Notes under the pieces: model-generated | The model's input: only the letters and a program-made list of their open reading frames with translations | Told to the model about the DNA's origin: nothing | Databases searched by the model: none | Made by a program: the position numbers and the translations under genes | In this document: positions 9,364 through 17,697 of the stretch, one piece after another | How the letters are laid out: the number at the start of each line of letters is the position of its first letter | Position numbering within the stretch: position 1 is the stretch's first letter | IMG/VR virus record: IMGVR_UViG_3300034106_000651 | Coordinates: 1 to 20,137 of that record | DNA length: 20,137 bases | From: a virus | Strand: one strand, 5' to 3'

Positions 9364-10823
9364 TGGCAACAGCTGCTGAAATTGAAAAACAAATTGCAGA
9401 CACGCAAGCAATCATTGACCAGATTGAGAACGCTGAAACTACTGCCCAAGGAACTTTTGTTTATCGTGGTAGGACATACACACCAGCGCAACTTGAGTCA
9501 TTGGCTAAGCCTTATCAGGCTCGTTTAAGTGCTTTGAACAAGATTTATTCTCCTTACGCATCAGCCTCCGCCCAGTTGTCAAGGGCTAGAGAAGTAGCGA
9601 AGAACCCAATCACAGAGTCTCCTACTGGTATGACACAGGCTGAAGCGAACAAGGCTGTCAAAGATGCTGAGGCTTTGCTTGCTACTGCCACTTCAAACTT
9701 AGGCACTGCTGTCATCCCCGCTGAAATTACTGCCTCTGTTTCTTCTGGTCGGCGCGGTCAAAGCGGTATGTCCGAAGCAGAGACAATGAAGATGGCTGCT
9801 GGTTTGGCAAAGATGCCTAAGAAAGAAACCAAAACTGAAAAACTTTCTTCAGATAAAACAAACAAGCCTGGTGTCGGCGGTGGGCCTACAAAGCCAGGTA
9901 TGGCACCAGGAGACACCACGGTCAAGGGTGGTACCAACTACACATGGGACGGAACCAAATGGGCTAAGTCAGGAACAGGTTCTTTTGAAAAAACTGAATC
10001 GACGTTCCGCAAGATGTTCCCATCACAAGCATGGTTGCTTGATTTGGATCGTGGCAAATACCCGAAACTGTTTGAACTTATTCGCCGTGCTGTTGATGGT
10101 CGGATGTATGAAACATCACAGGGACTTGAGCGTTTTGCTGCTGAACTGAAAAACACTGACTTCTATACGGAACTTGCCACCACCGACAAGGTACGCCAAA
10201 TCAAGGCTGTCACTGGCGACCTTGGGTTTGAAGGATCAAACTTCAACAAGTTCCTGACCACCTCAATGAACATGGGTTGGGAAGGCGACACCCTTAAGGC
10301 TGAAACATACAAGGAAGTTTTCCGCAAGGACGACCAAGGTAACTACATCAACACGACAGCGGTACAACGAGCCAAGAAGTCAAACGATTACCTGAAGGTT
10401 GCCAACGTCGGCAAGGCGTACTTCAATAACATCTCTGACTCCACCATCGAGAGTCGCCTGACCGGTGCATTGAACGATGATGATATTCAGCGTCAACAGC
10501 GTGAACTGGCAAAAACCAAGTACGCCCATCTTGGGAATCTCATTGACCAAGGTTTCACTCTTGCTGATCTTTCATCAGGGTTCAAACAACAGGCTGCCCA
10601 ACTTCTTGAAAAAGACGAGAACGCTATTGACATGAGCCAAGCAGATTTTGAAGCCGCCTACAACTACGGCGAGCCAGGTCAGAAACGAATGATGACCAAC
10701 GGTGAGTGGGAGATCATGCTTCGCAGTAACGCCAAGTTTGGTTGGGACAAAACAAACAACGCCAAGGCTGAGGCTCGACAACTTGCCTCTACTATCAGTC
10801 AAGCATTCGGGAGGATTATCTAA
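9363..10823 (+). CDS. Uncharacterised structural-block protein (486 aa) with N-terminal coiled coil
   Basis: The N-terminus (about 1-30, EIEKQIADTQAIIDQIENAE) looks like a coiled coil, followed by Ala-rich helices. A Gly/Pro/Lys/Thr-rich linker lies around 135-190, and then GTNYTWDGTKWAKSG at about 189-203. The C-terminal 280 residues are a folded, aromatic- and charge-rich region beginning near TFRKMFPSQAWLLDLDRGKY. This includes NTDFYTELATTDKVRQIKA and VTGDLGFEGSNFN, a pattern I associate loosely with other phage head-block proteins. There are no membrane segments or catalytic motifs. The start overlaps the previous stop (TAATG) with AAGGA at 9349-9353. Its TAA overlaps the following start in the same way. 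The role is unknown; a minor capsid, neck or ejection protein is the likeliest reading. Confidence 0.75.
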   Translation: MATAAEIEKQIADTQAIIDQIENAETTAQGTFVYRGRTYTPAQLESLAKPYQARLSALNKIYSPYASASAQLSRAREVAKNPITESPTGMTQAEANKAVKDAEALLATATSNLGTAVIPAEITASVSSGRRGQSGMSEAETMKMAAGLAKMPKKETKTEKLSSDKTNKPGVGGGPTKPGMAPGDTTVKGGTNYTWDGTKWAKSGTGSFEKTESTFRKMFPSQAWLLDLDRGKYPKLFELIRRAVDGRMYETSQGLERFAAELKNTDFYTELATTDKVRQIKAVTGDLGFEGSNFNKFLTTSMNMGWEGDTLKAETYKEVFRKDDQGNYINTTAVQRAKKSNDYLKVANVGKAYFNNISDSTIESRLTGALNDDDIQRQQRELAKTKYAHLGNLIDQGFTLADLSSGFKQQAAQLLEKDENAIDMSQADFEAAYNYGEPGQKRMMTNGEWEIMLRSNAKFGWDKTNNAKAEARQLASTISQAFGRII

Positions 10824-11692
10824 TGGAAGACCAGTCAGCATTTGACATTCTTTTGAATACCTTAAAGTATTACGGTTTAGTGAAAGAGGGCGACACCGCG
10901 CTTTTTGAGACAATCAAAACGGCATGGACAGGAAAACAAATCGGACCTGGTGATGGCCCTGATGAAGTTGGCATAGCCCTGCGTGACAATGAAACATTCC
11001 AGGCTCGTTTCCCTGCAAACAAAGCACTTAAAGACCAAGGAAAACCACAGTATTCTGTTACTAGGTACTTGCAACTTGAAGGCGATTACAAAGCAGCTTT
11101 GCAAGAAGCCGGTTTGCCAGCGGATTTTTACGATCAACCAAGCGATTTCCAAGCGTGGATTGCTGGCGGGACTTCCGTCAACGAAGTAAGAGATCGCGCA
11201 CAACTTGGCTATCAGGCTGTTCGACAGTCCAACCCTCAAGTCATCGCAGAGTTCAAGCGTCTCTACGGTGTCAACGAAGGCGAACTGGCTGCATACTTCA
11301 TTGATCCTGAACGGATGCGTCCGACCTTTGATCGTTACGAAGCAGAGCGTCAAGCCCGTTCAGCCCAGATCGCAGCGCAAGCCACAACCCAAGCAGGCTT
11401 CACCCTCGGTCAGCAACAGGCTGAAGAACTAGCCCGTGCCGGTGTCACACAAGAACAAGCACAAGCAGGCTTCACCGCTTTAGGCGACACACGGGAACTG
11501 TTCCAAACGTCGCTCGCAGGCGAACAGCAAATCACTCAGCAAGAACAAATCGCAGGCACCTTCAACACGAACGCTGAAGCCCGCCAAAAAATTGCAGCTC
11601 GCAGGCGTGGACGACAAGCAGCGTTTGAATCTGGTGGTGGCTTCGCCACAGGTCAAACAGGTGTCGCAGGTCTTTCTACTGTAGGGCAGTAG
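10823..11692 (+). CDS. Uncharacterised structural-block protein (289 aa), Gln/Ala-rich C-terminus
   Basis: The N-terminal 150 residues look folded, with aromatic and acidic helices such as YLQLEGDYKAALQEAGLPAD and FYDQPSDFQAWIAGG. They are followed by RAQLGYQAVRQSNPQVIAEF and an LAAYFIDPERM segment near residue 155. The last 120 residues are Gln/Ala/Glu-rich, predicted helical, and end in a basic patch (IAARRRGRQAAFES) and a flexible Gly/Thr tail. The start is strongly supported: TAATG overlap plus GGAGG at 10810-10814, eight bases upstream. It is the last gene of the coupled run, and the next gene is separated by 154 bases holding a candidate promoter. I infer a minor head or ejection protein. 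A second scaffold-like role is possible given the Gln-rich helices, but there is no direct evidence. Confidence 0.75.
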   Translation: MEDQSAFDILLNTLKYYGLVKEGDTALFETIKTAWTGKQIGPGDGPDEVGIALRDNETFQARFPANKALKDQGKPQYSVTRYLQLEGDYKAALQEAGLPADFYDQPSDFQAWIAGGTSVNEVRDRAQLGYQAVRQSNPQVIAEFKRLYGVNEGELAAYFIDPERMRPTFDRYEAERQARSAQIAAQATTQAGFTLGQQQAEELARAGVTQEQAQAGFTALGDTRELFQTSLAGEQQITQQEQIAGTFNTNAEARQKIAARRRGRQAAFESGGGFATGQTGVAGLSTVGQ

Positions 11693-11709
11693 CATAAAAA
11701 AAATACCTG

Positions 11710-11718
11710 TGTTACTGT
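11710..11718 (+). promoter_or_regulatory. Candidate extended -10 promoter for scaffold/capsid
   Basis: The string TGTTACTGT matches the extended -10 form TGnTAnnnT and lies in TGTGTTACTGTAA. Almost the same string, TGTGTTACTATAA, precedes the first basic protein gene near 13376. No -35 hexamer is recognisable 17 bases upstream. Transcription would begin near 11725 and give a leader of about 120 bases. Confidence 0.45.
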
Positions 11719-11846
11719 AAGTCTGATCCCGATGGGAAGACACATAGGTAACCCCCCCGTGCCTATGTCGTAAATAGGGGTGTAACAATTTAACGCAGCC
11801 ACCACAACCCTCCAGTGTGGTGTGGGCAGAAAACGGAGTGTGCCAA
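11719..11846 (+). promoter_or_regulatory. Structured 5' leader with three hairpins
   Basis: This gap has no credible ORF. It can fold into three successive hairpins. The first is 11721-11741: GTCT and TCCC pair with GGGA and AGAC around a GAT loop, with a two-base bulge. The second is 11742-11768: ACATAGGTA with TGCCTATGT, including one G-T pair, around a nine-base C-rich loop. The third is 11800-11822: CACCACA with TGTGGTG, around a nine-base loop, and it ends 12 bases before the GGAG of the scaffold gene. None has a T-run, so they do not look like intrinsic terminators. mRNA stability or translation control of the capsid genes is an inference. Confidence 0.4.
11835..11838 (+). promoter_or_regulatory. 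Ribosome binding site deciding the scaffold start
   Basis: GGAG lies eight bases before the ATG at 11847. An in-frame GTG at 11817 would place the start inside the third hairpin without a comparable site, so the ATG is preferred. Confidence 0.6.
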
Positions 11847-12308
11847 ATGTCAGAGATCGACTACGAAGATTACTCGGACGACGACCAGCAAGAACCACGC
11901 AAGGACCCAGTCCGAGCAAGGCTCAAGCAGTTGGAAAAGCAGAACGCAGAACTAAGTCGGTTGGTTGAACAAGCCAACTCAGCACAGCGGGAACTGACTT
12001 TTACTAAGGCAGGGATCAACCCTGACGAACCAAGGTTTAAGTATTTCCTTAAAGGCTACGACGGTGAACTTACTGTGGATGCAATCCGACAGGCCGCAGA
12101 AGAAGCACAATTGCTTACACCCCAGAACCCAGTCAATGACTCGGATAAGGCAGCATGGCAGCAGTCCAACAGGATTGCAGCTGGAGCCGAATCAGGATCA
12201 GATGGGCCTTCATGGATGAAGCGAATCGCAGACGCTGGTTCCGAGGAAGAATTGATGGCGGTTTTCGCTGAGGCGCAAGCCCAAGGCATTGACCTTGGAT
12301 CAATTTAA
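11847..12308 (+). CDS. Probable capsid scaffolding protein
   Basis: The protein is 153 residues from the ATG at 11847. It is very acidic at the N-terminus (MSEIDYEDYSDDDQQEP), then shows a coiled-coil-like helix at about 28-55 (LKQLEKQNAELSRLVEQANS). The C-terminal half is polar and helical, ending in MAVFAEAQAQGIDLGSI. Acidic, coiled-coil proteins encoded immediately before the major capsid protein are the classic layout of phage scaffolds, which template prohead assembly and leave before or during packaging. There is no protease motif, so it is not a protease-scaffold fusion. The capsid gene starts 28 bases downstream, likely on the same transcript from the 11710 promoter. The function is inferred from composition and position. 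Confidence 0.75.
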   Translation: MSEIDYEDYSDDDQQEPRKDPVRARLKQLEKQNAELSRLVEQANSAQRELTFTKAGINPDEPRFKYFLKGYDGELTVDAIRQAAEEAQLLTPQNPVNDSDKAAWQQSNRIAAGAESGSDGPSWMKRIADAGSEEELMAVFAEAQAQGIDLGSI

Positions 12309-12336: not shown

Positions 12337-13317
12337 ATGGCTGACTATTACGCAGCAGAAATCGGCACCGCCAACCTCTCGGTTGATCAGATTGCCTTTG
12401 AAAAGATGGCATATTTTGCCCTCCGTCCAGAGATGTACTTTGACCAGTTCGCAGATGTTCAAGCAACAAATGCAACGAACCCTGGTTCATCTATCAAGTT
12501 CACCGTCTTCGCTGACCTTGCAGCAGCTACTACTCCTCTTGGCGAAGCCGAGGATGTAACTCCTGTTTCAATGTCTGACAGCCAGGTCACCGTTACTCTT
12601 GAGGAGTATGGTAACGCCACTGTCACCACAGCGAAGTTGCGCGCATCTTCGTTCATGCCTGTTGACCCAGTTGCAGCTCAGGCTGTTGGTTACAACGCTG
12701 GTTTGTCAATTGACACCATCGCTCGTAATGTTGTTCAGGCTGGCGACAATGTGATTTACGCAACCGGTGGTGCTGTTGATCCATCAAGCCGTACAACGGT
12801 TAACGCAGATGACACCCTTGCAGCTAACGATGTCCGTCGAGTCGTCGCTCAGTTGCGTGGTGCAAATGTGCCAACCATCAACGGTTCATATGTTGGCTTC
12901 ATCCACCCCGACGTGTCTTACGACTTCCGTTCGGCAACCGATGCAGCAGCATGGCGTACCCCAGCGAACTATGTAAATCCTGAAGGCATTTACAACGGTG
13001 AAATCGGAATGTTTGAAGGCGTTCGCTTCATGGAGTCCTCACGCGCTCCATTGTTTGCTAACGCATCCAACAACAGCGGTTCTGCTGGAACCATCGACGT
13101 GTACGGCACATTGATCATGGGTCGCCAGGCTCTCGCTAAGGGTGTTTCCCTTGGTGGCGAGTACGGCGCACAGCCAACGATCGTGTACGGCACAGTGACC
13201 GACCTCCTCAAGCGTTTCCGCCCTGTGGGTTGGAAGCACTTCGTGGGTTACGGTGTGTTCCGTCAGGAAGCCCTCCGTCGTATCGAGTCGGCTTCGTCCA
13301 TCGGCACCAACGCCTAA
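12337..13317 (+). CDS. Major capsid protein, N4-gp56-like HK97 fold
   Basis: This 326-residue protein forms the capsid shell. The N-terminal helix region (AFEKMAYFALRPEMYFDQFA), the strand-turn segments ATTPLGEAEDVTPVSMSDS and VTVTLEEYGNATVTT, and a later HPDVSYDFR (about 190-198) are typical of the N4-gp56-type major capsid family. That family uses the HK97 fold with an extended loop. It lies straight after a scaffold-like gene. AAGGA at 12323-12327 stands nine bases before the ATG. The gene ends in a double stop (TAATAA) and is followed 25 bases later by a strong UUCG terminator, consistent with high, isolated expression. No N-terminal cleavage site is obvious. The family name comes from recognition of the sequence pattern, not from a search. 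Confidence 0.88.
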   Translation: MADYYAAEIGTANLSVDQIAFEKMAYFALRPEMYFDQFADVQATNATNPGSSIKFTVFADLAAATTPLGEAEDVTPVSMSDSQVTVTLEEYGNATVTTAKLRASSFMPVDPVAAQAVGYNAGLSIDTIARNVVQAGDNVIYATGGAVDPSSRTTVNADDTLAANDVRRVVAQLRGANVPTINGSYVGFIHPDVSYDFRSATDAAAWRTPANYVNPEGIYNGEIGMFEGVRFMESSRAPLFANASNNSGSAGTIDVYGTLIMGRQALAKGVSLGGEYGAQPTIVYGTVTDLLKRFRPVGWKHFVGYGVFRQEALRRIESASSIGTNA

Positions 13318-13341
13318 TAATTTCCGACAAGGAATTAGCAG

Positions 13342-13376
13342 AAACCCCCTGCCTTCGGGCGGGGGGTTTTTGTTTT
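13342..13376 (+). terminator. Rho-independent terminator after the major capsid gene
   Basis: A 12-base-pair stem pairs AAACCCCCTGCC (13342-13353) with GGCGGGGGGTTT (13358-13369), including one T-G pair. The loop is TTCG closed by C-G, the very stable UUCG tetraloop. A T-rich tail (TTTTTGTTTT) follows. A promoter-like element starts two bases beyond it. Confidence 0.92.
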
Positions 13377-13417: not shown

Positions 13418-13714
13418 ATGGCCGCTAAGAAGGCTCCCGCAAAAAAAGCAGCACCTGCTAAGGCTACTGGTCGCAAGCCAGCCGACTTCATGGGTGCAAA
13501 AATTGGCACCAGTGCAGCCGCTAAGCGCATGGCTGACGAAGGAATGACAGCAAAGTCAAAGGCTGTCAAGGCCGCACAGCGCCGTGGCGCAAGTGGTGTC
13601 GCCACCGCAGCAGCAGGAAGCAATGCTTATTACGCAACAGTCAAGAAGGCAAAGGGTTACAAAGTAAGTGACACCGATGCTTCGTATGCAGCAAGAAACA
13701 AGAAGAAGAAGTAA
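13418..13714 (+). CDS. Lys/Ala-rich basic protein A, putative DNA- or capsid-binding
   Basis: This is a 98-residue, strongly basic protein beginning MAAKKAPAKKAAPAKATGRK and ending RNKKKK. The N-terminal tail resembles the KA/KP-rich tails of histone H1-like and actinobacterial HU-type proteins, which bind DNA by charge. The middle (TSAAAKRMADEGMTAKSKAV) is probably helical, and SNAYYATVKKAKGYKV adds aromatic residues. It shares its first ten residues and its lysine-only C-terminus with the next protein (13817), while the centres differ. It has its own promoter, ribosome site and downstream terminator, suggesting high late expression. Plausible roles are DNA condensation in the head, capsid decoration or a host-directed nucleoid factor. 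No family was identified with certainty. Confidence 0.8.
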   Translation: MAAKKAPAKKAAPAKATGRKPADFMGAKIGTSAAAKRMADEGMTAKSKAVKAAQRRGASGVATAAAGSNAYYATVKKAKGYKVSDTDASYAARNKKKK

Positions 13715-13809: not shown

Positions 13810-13816
13810 AATGATT

Positions 13817-14158
13817 ATGGCCGCTAAGAAGGCTCCCGCAAAGAAGATGGTTGCACCTAAGAAGACAGGGAAGACTGCTGATTCCAGCAAGTTGACTCTA
13901 TCGCAAAAGAAGAATCTTGCAGCAAGCGCAAAGATGCGTACTGACGCTGCTGGTCGTTCGGGAATGGGCGAGACAGCAACATCAAATATAAGGTTTAAGG
14001 GTGGTAATGCGATGTCTTCGGCAAACAAAACAGCCCTTGCTGCAGCCGACAAAGCATCCAAGTCTGGTGGTAGTCCAACAACTGCGTTTGTAAAAAGTTT
14101 GCGCGCTGCAGGGAAAGCTGCAGAACAAGCAGCAGCCATGAGAAAGAAAAAGAAGTAG
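13817..14158 (+). CDS. Lys/Ala-rich basic protein B, paralogous ends with protein A
   Basis: The protein has 113 residues from 13817. It starts with the same ten residues as protein A (MAAKKAPAKK) and ends RKKKK. The central part is different: LTLSQKKNLAASAKMRTDAA, then a Gly-containing stretch, then an Ala/Lys helix (SLRAAGKAAEQAAAMRK). The shared ends with unlike centres suggest duplication of the regulatory front followed by recombination or fast divergence. It is flanked by its own promoter and a UUCG terminator. Function is unknown. As for protein A, nucleic-acid binding is a charge-based inference, and a decoration or cement role next to the capsid gene is an alternative. Confidence 0.8.
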   Translation: MAAKKAPAKKMVAPKKTGKTADSSKLTLSQKKNLAASAKMRTDAAGRSGMGETATSNIRFKGGNAMSSANKTALAAADKASKSGGSPTTAFVKSLRAAGKAAEQAAAMRKKKK

Positions 14159-16203: not shown

Positions 16204-17697
16204 ATGGCTACATTGAACATCACCGTTACTAAGTCATCTGAAACATTAGGCTTAATTACTTCTAATGTTGTAACTGTTGTCGGTTCTTCTGCTGCTGGAC
16301 CACAAGGACCGACAGGTCCGACAGGCGCACAAGGAATCCAAGGAGTTACTGGTCCAACTGGTTCCACAGGTCCAACAGGTCCAACAGGTCCAACAGGTTC
16401 TACAGGGGCAGCTTCTACAGTCACAGGTCCCACTGGCGCAACTGGCGCAACTGGCGCACAAGGATCAATTGGACCTACAGGCTCCACAGGGTTGCAAGGA
16501 GTCACTGGACCGACAGGTCCGACAGGCGCACAAGGAGACATCGGACCTACAGGCGCACAAGGACCTACAGGCGCACAAGGTATCCAAGGTATCCAAGGGA
16601 ACCAAGGTGTAACTGGACCAACAGGATCTACGGGTTCTACGGGTCCTGCCGGACCCACAGGTGCCACAGGTGCCGCTTCCACAGTTACTGGACCAACAGG
16701 TGCTACGGGTGCTACGGGTGCAGCAAGTACCGTCACGGGACCCACGGGTCCCACGGGTCCGCAGGGTCAGTCGTCAAGTTTCTACGACTACAGAATTGAC
16801 ACGAACACCACAAGCGGGAACCCTGGCACTGCCTTAATTGCGTATAACAATGCAACTCAAACTTCTGCGACACAGTTGCAAATCAACCATATCGATGTTG
16901 ATGGTTTTGACATTGACTTGTTCCTTGGGCTGTTAAAACCAAACGACACTGTTTACATTCAAGACGCTGGCAACTCTGCGAACTTCCAAAAGTTCATTGT
17001 CAGTGGAACGATCACCGATCATGTGAATTCTTGGATTGATGTCCCTGTTACCTACTCCACTGGTGGCGGTACAGGCGCATCAGGGTTTGCAGACAACCTG
17101 CTCGTCCTTCTTGTCATAGCGAACATTGGTCCGACAGGACCCACGGGTGCGACAGGCGCGACAGGTGCTGCCTCTACAGTTACGGGACCTACTGGGGCAA
17201 CAGGTGCGTCTGGCACCAACGGCACCAACGGCATAGATGGAGCAACAGGTCCAACAGGCCCTACAGGTGCAACTGGTTTGGATGGTGCGACAGGTCCAAC
17301 TGGATCGCAAGGACCTACTGGCGCACAAGGCATCCAAGGAAATGCCGGTGCTACTGGGCCAACTGGCGCAACAGGGGCAGCCGCTTCTTTTTCTAACGCA
17401 CAAACAATCAACGCCCAAACAGGGACAACATACAGTTTGGTTTCGGGTGACGCAGGGAAAATGGTTACTTTAAACAATGCGTCAGCAATCACCGTCACGG
17501 TTAATGCAACGACAGCATTATCTGCTGGTCAGGCTATTGACCTTCTACAAATAGGTGCGGGACAAGTAACGGTAGTTGCTTCTAGCGTAACGATGAATAG
17601 AACACCTGGTCCTAAGTTTCGTGATAGGTATTCAGCAGCAACACTGTTCTGTGTCGGCTCTAACGATTATGTGCTTATTGGCGATTTGAGTTCGTAA
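16204..17697 (+). CDS. Collagen-like tail or head fibre protein
   Basis: The 497-residue protein has five parts. Residues 1-31 are a beta-rich anchor ([20 protein letters not shown]). Residues about 32-188 are G-x-y triplets dominated by GPTG, GATG and GAQG. About 189-308 is a non-collagenous domain ([20 protein letters not shown] onward). About 309-395 is a second collagen block, and 396-497 a C-terminal domain ([20 protein letters not shown] and [11 protein letters not shown]), likely the trimerising, host-facing tip. Collagen blocks form rigid triple helices in phage fibres. Thr in the Y position is very common, which matters because Gly-Pro-Thr collagens of Bacillus spores (BclA) are O-glycosylated on Thr. 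GAGG at 16195-16198 supports the ATG. The stop overlaps the adhesin start (TAATG). Confidence 0.9.
16297..16768 (+). repeat. Collagen-coding triplet repeat block 1
   Basis: This is a 9-base-unit tandem array coding G-x-y. Exact and near-exact runs such as GGTCCAACA occur three times in a row near 16367-16390, and ACAGGCGCACAAGG recurs. The array is prone to slippage, so length may vary between relatives. Confidence 0.85.
17126..17390 (+). repeat. Collagen-coding triplet repeat block 2
   Basis: This second G-x-y array shares peptide units with block 1 ([24 protein letters not shown]) with different codon wording in places. This points to old internal duplication rather than very recent copying. 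Confidence 0.8.

Follow-up and report, generated by a model that had tools for sequence, protein, structure and literature searches.

A conserved, probably pseudoknotted leader RNA preceding the scaffold and capsid genes of a group of phages

In preQ1-II-type riboswitches, the Shine-Dalgarno sequence is one strand of a pseudoknot in the expression platform. The P22 scaffolding protein exerts autogenous, post-transcriptional feedback on scaffold synthesis, although we know of no RNA element of the kind described below for P22. According to those sections of PMC3014915 that deal with pseudoknotted leaders, the product of T4 gene 32 (gp32, a single-stranded DNA-binding protein) nucleates on a leader pseudoknot and goes on to cover an unstructured A+U-rich region at the ribosome-binding site, and the translational operator of Escherichia coli rpsO (S15) also contains a pseudoknot. 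The RNA characterized here resembles the gene 32 leader in that a phage leader carries a likely H-type pseudoknot upstream of the ribosome-binding site, with translational control as its predicted role. It differs in that the loop of a second hairpin complements the Shine-Dalgarno itself and that the genes served are those for scaffold and capsid. The rpsO operator, unlike this phage leader, serves a bacterial ribosomal-protein gene. The preQ1-II-type riboswitches share the use of the Shine-Dalgarno as a pseudoknot strand, but the leader has no Rfam match and no metabolic gene context, while the P22 feedback would follow the same logic if the leader acts on scaffold supply. The nearest described logic is that of the T4 gene 32 leader pseudoknot (PMC3014915).

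The stretch of DNA analysed (the window) is a virus record of 20,137 nt that encodes terminase, portal, a 1540-aa protein, scaffold, major capsid protein, glycosyltransferase and collagen-like genes. No close relative of this virus was found among phage records. A 497-aa collagen-like protein with GPTG-type repeats (16204-17697) is likely a tail fibre. The name "scaffold" is based on gene position and on the acidic, coiled character of the product; the PHROG to which it belongs is itself of unknown function. The gap ahead of this gene encodes a conserved RNA of approximately 125 nt, the 5' leader of a predicted scaffold-capsid mRNA (Table 1). An earlier note on this DNA had called it the only sizeable non-coding gap, a slight overstatement: the gap is real, but two more of approximately 100 nt follow the capsid gene. 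A strong terminator-like hairpin (17 pairs, then T-rich; 13337-13374) lies directly 3' of the capsid gene, as do two Lys-rich, histone-H1-like small proteins (13418-13711, pI 10.5, and 13811-14155, pI 11.1).

Table 1. Positions of the leader, its predicted parts and the adjoining genes in the window
Feature	Position	Strand	Description
Upstream ORF	10823-11692		289 aa; ends where the leader gap begins
Non-coding gap holding the leader	11693-11846		154 nt; from the stop of the 289-aa ORF to the scaffold ATG
Predicted -10 element	11713-11718	+	TACTGT; preceded by TGTGT (extended -10)
H1 hairpin	11727-11737	+	UCCC-GAU-GGGA; conserved GA flanks both sides
H2 stem (stem 1 of likely PK1)	11742-11768	+	ACAUAGG(U)...(G)CCUAUGU; 7-8 pairs
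C-run in H2 loop (5' strand of likely PK1)	11752-11758	+	seven C
GGGG (3' strand of likely PK1)	11777-11780	+	within conserved GGGGUGUAA
H3, whole	11795-11827	+	outer stem, internal loop, upper stem, apical loop
H3 outer stem	11795-11796 with 11826-11827	+	GC/GC
H3 internal loop	11797-11799 / 11823-11825	+	AGC / NGG; AGC and GG invariant
H3 upper stem	11800-11806 with 11816-11822	+	CACCACA-ACCCUCCAG-UGUGGUG spans 11800-11822
CUCC in H3 loop (5' strand of PK2)	11810-11813	+	Shine-Dalgarno complement
GGAG (3' strand of PK2)	11835-11838	+	scaffold Shine-Dalgarno; followed by conserved NGUGCCA to ATG
Scaffold-like gene	11847-12308	+	153 aa; phrog_7813; first gene 3' of the leader
Major capsid protein gene	12337-13317	+	326 aa; phrog_1357

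The order along the locus is promoter, H1, H2 (whose loop faces GGGG as PK1), H3 (whose loop faces the Shine-Dalgarno as PK2) and scaffold start. The three hairpins described in the earlier note, including the run of seven C, are all present. Across 100 homologues, the AGC and GG of the H3 internal loop and four C of the H2 loop are invariant (100/100 in each case), and sequence conservation extends across the Shine-Dalgarno and spacer as far as the start codon.

The best 80 of 420 loci were taken from a capsid-protein scan, 65 of them with both flanking genes. The leader was recognised in 67 of the 80, and the other 13 begin too near, or within, the leader. A DNA pattern of the RNA alone, which is independent of any protein, found at least 120 stretches in IMG/VR. 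Among the matches listed, R1, a covariance model derived from 42 distinct leaders, matches 104 of the 113 loci that this pattern added, each with a score of at least 69 bits; the remaining nine are chance matches within unrelated sequence. A scaffold homologue lies 3' of the leader in 146 of the 149 matches listed, in which some contigs appear twice, and the three exceptions have at most 36 nt of downstream DNA. In a second capsid clade (67% identical), a leader match was found in 73 of 80 loci; the DNA of the other seven begins no more than 510 nt from the capsid gene. The leader therefore has the fixed position 5' of the scaffold gene, on the same strand and within a predicted transcript, that is characteristic of a cis-regulatory leader RNA. 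Leader divergence correlates with scaffold divergence at rho 0.59 vs 0.41 for the equally adjacent upstream gene (80 loci; bootstrap difference 0.02 to 0.31), which gives weak support to a link with the scaffold side.

Each of 28 records (25-79 kb) has exactly one leader copy, and 25 of the 28 carry a WhiB gene. Because WhiB is a marker of actinobacterial phages, the host of the leader-bearing phages is probably an actinobacterium. A pattern scan of genome contigs for host or prophage copies returned 81 stretches (80 loci) with no convincing model match (best 17.5 bits, E-value: 0.043).

To score covariation, 100 of 103 distinct sequences were aligned to the covariance model. With both pseudoknots counted, the structure has 28 pairs, and 95.6% of 2790 cells are paired. 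Two-sided changes occur in 20 pairs and in 654 cells, vs 168 expected by shuffling. The covariation score is 0.608, compared to 0.174 for shuffled alignments (0/500 reach the observed value) and 0.035-0.098 for slid controls; compensatory changes are thus overwhelmingly present, and the secondary structure covaries as that of a cis-regulatory leader RNA should. The alignment was fitted to the modelled H1, H2 and H3, so that the following counts for these hairpins are favoured, while PK1 and PK2 lie outside the model. Two-sided changes affect all three pairs of H1 (99.0% formed) and all eight of H2 (88.6% formed), for which 52 distinct 5' arms are found among the 100 sequences. The H3 outer stem is 100% formed and both of its pairs covary; in the upper stem, 97.7% formed, six of seven do. 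A first RNAalifold consensus from a MAFFT alignment had no H2 and showed PK1 as a regular helix; the covariance-model alignment corrected both.

Single-sequence folding was rejected as evidence, as the whole leader folds no better than shuffles in the window and two homologues and worse in a third. The 128 nt of the earlier note give -34.1 kcal/mol vs a shuffled mean of -34.87 (z 0.20), so that the shuffling check named in that note, taken alone, would have led us to discard the three-hairpin structure, whereas the note's other check, for compensatory changes among relatives, comes out overwhelmingly in its favour. Of the single hairpins, H2 has a z of -3.58, H1 of -0.99 and H3 of +0.32; only the window H2 and one Streptomyces leader (L444) stand out from shuffles.

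PK1, in which the C-run of the H2 loop pairs with GGGG, is paired in 99.5% of cells and is invariant in the clade of the window. As this invariance leaves no covariation there, the argument that H2 and GGGG likely form an H-type pseudoknot is made by analogy with Streptomyces-type relatives. By eye, only part of the sequences can pair beyond CCCC/GGGG, and no such extension is claimed.

Capsid proteins of the Streptomyces Beephvirinae are approximately 41% identical, and the R1 model found no match in the Streptomyces-type relatives (79 sources). Their leader occupies the same pre-scaffold gap, directly 3' of a tRNA array, and is built of a hairpin with a loop that pairs with a downstream segment, a conserved GAGC, a strong hairpin, a conserved GGC and the Shine-Dalgarno. 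H1 was not seen in these leaders. Fifty-one of 58 distinct parsed leaders were aligned (L441, L473, L489, L490, L514, L516 and L084 were left out because they were misparsed or difficult to align); 8 further loci were too short or unparsed. In the 51, PK1 is 95.1% paired and four of its five pairs show two-sided changes; for the outer stem, the figures are 100% and three of four. The PK1 5-mers are ACCGG/CCGGU (16), GCUGG/CCAGC (14), GCCAG/CUGGC (11), GUCAG/CUGAC (2) and five more types once each; nine of the 15 exact 5-mer pair types were assigned to the PK1 place by reading and six were taken as chance or register slips. Both clades have AGC 5' and GG 3' of the internal loop beside the outer stem. 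From the shared position, plan and AGC/GG motif, we infer that the two leader types are of common descent.

Several observations concern individual relatives. In Streptomyces phage Kumquat, 21 tRNA genes (L082:2338-4351) stand where the freshwater phages have the promoter, and the leader directly follows the last tRNA. The annotated start of the scaffold-position gene of Immanuel3 (L604:218) falls within the leader hairpin; the likely true start is further downstream. Streptomyces phage BRock has a gap of only 71 nt, in which no leader was recognised. Among Bacillus phages, inspection by eye suggests a possible H-type pseudoknot (UGAG/CUCA) in Pascal, Page and Pookie but not in Palmer, and in Pascal (L519:1571-1666) and Page (L601:129-231) a hairpin abuts the Shine-Dalgarno before the scaffold-position gene.

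PK2 was recounted directly from the sequences because 11 alignment rows were out of register. The classes are CUCC/GGAG (93), CUCU/GGAG (5) and CUCG/CGAG (2), with no mismatch in 100/100 leaders; the variation thus consists of one two-sided swap and one wobble class. As the swap was found in leaders with identical H3, it is probably a single event. Two scans for altered PK2 (loops lacking the last C, and Shine-Dalgarno sequences lacking the first G) found no broken pair among the matches listed and brought the parsed set to at least 122 distinct leaders. The leader therefore has a conserved partner that covaries with the Shine-Dalgarno, as a sequestering RNA would, on the strength of one swap, probably a single event, and a wobble class. 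Two points count against PK2: of its four pairs, three are nearly constant in the clade of the window, and a loop rich in C will pair with nearly every Shine-Dalgarno.

In the Streptomyces clade, the apical loop and the Shine-Dalgarno form combinations such as CCUAG/CUAGG, CCUAA/UUAGG, CUCCC/GGGAG and CCCAG/CUGGG. For 31 loop/Shine-Dalgarno types (loops of at least 8 nt), the leaders' own pairing scores 4.55 vs 4.33 when permuted, and 50 of 2000 permutations reach the observed value; five of the 31 pair by 3 to 3.5 only, and narrower loops show no excess (3.28 own, 3.11 cross, 3.25 loop-shuffled). Tracking of the Shine-Dalgarno by the loop is therefore suggestive only in this clade.

The candidate promoter of the earlier note fared well in comparison with relatives. 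The best sigma-70-type site in 94 distinct upstream regions scores 8.4 vs 6.6 in shuffles. In 64 of the 94, the end of the best -10 is no more than 2 nt away from a common point, which precedes the conserved GA of the H1 foot by approximately 5-9 nt. TATAGT is the usual -10 of the relatives, and TTGACA-like hexamers lie 16-18 nt upstream of it. In the window, the best-scoring hexamer of this comparison fell elsewhere, and a separate strict consensus scan reported no promoter at TACTGT. The predicted transcription start (approximately 11724-11726) lies at the foot of H1. Covariation, position and promoter together strongly support the structured leader that had been placed between a promoter and the ribosome-binding site of the scaffold/capsid mRNA; that proposal included neither pseudoknot, nor the match between the H3 loop and the Shine-Dalgarno, nor the breadth of the RNA family.

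As to function, protection of the mRNA, regulation and protein binding had all been suggested. No binding partner was found, and the anatomy favours control of translation initiation, the simplest reading of an element that ends at the start codon, conserves the Shine-Dalgarno and spacer and has a loop that tracks the Shine-Dalgarno. We consider it fairly probable that the leader acts in cis as a translational switch for the scaffold-capsid mRNA. In the freshwater clade, a linker of 3-10 nt (3-6 in 89/100 and 4 in 40/100) separates the H3 outer stem from the Shine-Dalgarno. By pseudoknot geometry, so short a linker would not reach across a fully formed H3, which makes PK2 and the H3 outer stem probable alternatives. 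With PK2 formed, the ribosome-binding site would be covered and scaffold, probably along with capsid, poorly translated; with the outer stem and internal loop formed, the linker would be too short for PK2 and the site would be free. The state may be set by a factor that binds the invariant parts, namely the PK1 core and the AGC/GG internal loop. The first candidate would be a phage morphogenesis protein, which would give feedback on shell-protein supply, and the second a host factor.

A more specific form of this switch is proposed tentatively, as possible but doubtful: an ancient, phage-only device that senses how far capsid assembly has gone, in which a morphogenesis protein (scaffold, capsid or an assembly intermediate) would bind both the PK1 core and the AGC/GG loop and so toggle access to the Shine-Dalgarno. 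It would predate the split between the freshwater and Streptomyces phages and might have a remnant in the Bacillus Pagevirus phages. Scaffold (pI 4.4) and capsid (pI 4.7) are both acidic, unlike typical RNA binders, which counts against the switch in either form. Two other candidate partners were rejected. For the Lys-rich proteins, a crude test detected such an ORF after the capsid gene in 8 of 74 relatives only. A 35-aa zinc-ribbon ORF (CxxC...CxxC), for example at L005:3252-3359 between the 289-aa-type gene and the leader, where its start overlaps the upstream stop, occurs in some relatives only and is absent from the window.

The leader could instead be a translational enhancer or standby site, whose structure keeps the Shine-Dalgarno accessible in a defined geometry and recruits ribosomes for very high late expression while the CCUCC loop pairs only transiently. 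Capsid genes need high expression, and the Shine-Dalgarno, spacer and start are conserved together with the RNA; however, an enhancer would not call for a loop that changes in step with the Shine-Dalgarno, and we regard this reading as unlikely. Decidedly unlikely is an mRNA stability element in which a 5'-terminal H1 and the pseudoknots block RNases. The predicted transcription start and the conservation of the H1 stem are in keeping with such a role, but it requires neither invariant loops, nor an invariant internal loop, nor pairing of a loop with the Shine-Dalgarno, and the Streptomyces-type leader follows tRNAs and has no recognised H1.

A put-like RNA, acting on the transcribing RNA polymerase so that it reads through terminators (the hairpin 3' of the capsid gene would be one), would suit a leader directly 3' of a promoter. 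A crude pattern picked up similar hairpins at that place in no more than 24 of 74 relatives, the RNA invariably stops at the scaffold start and the Streptomyces form stands behind tRNA genes, all of which makes this role very improbable. There is a similarly slim chance of a metabolite-binding riboswitch that tunes capsid synthesis to the state of the host: a double pseudoknot, invariant core and Shine-Dalgarno pairing are riboswitch-like, but the RNA was found only before structural genes and in none of the host genomes scanned. Inverted repeats acting in the DNA, for protein binding or packaging, can be dismissed almost entirely despite palindromic arms that are perfect in the window, since the pair types of both clades include G-U wobbles, which point to RNA pairing rather than DNA palindromes, and since the loops are invariant, the pseudoknot strands complementary and the orientation before scaffold strict.

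No Rfam 15 family reached the gathering threshold in the window, nor did any tRNA; a search of 11680-11880 at E-values up to 5 gave one sub-threshold match, on the opposite strand. None was found in 14 homologue loci, and only tRNAs were found in six Streptomyces-type loci. No report of this leader RNA was found in the open-licence PMC literature. The leader appears to be an RNA family absent from Rfam, new but of the pseudoknotted translational leader type, with unusual target genes.

This leader precedes the most highly needed genes of a common metagenomic group of actinobacterial phages, and a diverged form of it precedes those of cultured Streptomyces phages. Retention of the same plan (a pseudoknot, then a hairpin with an anti-Shine-Dalgarno loop) across approximately 41% capsid identity argues for strong selection. 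If the assembly-sensing reading is true, scaffold and capsid would be made only as fast as shells consume them. The balance of scaffold and capsid in phages is a long-standing question, and one that becomes testable with the Streptomyces phages Manuel, FlowerPower, Immanuel3 and Abafar.
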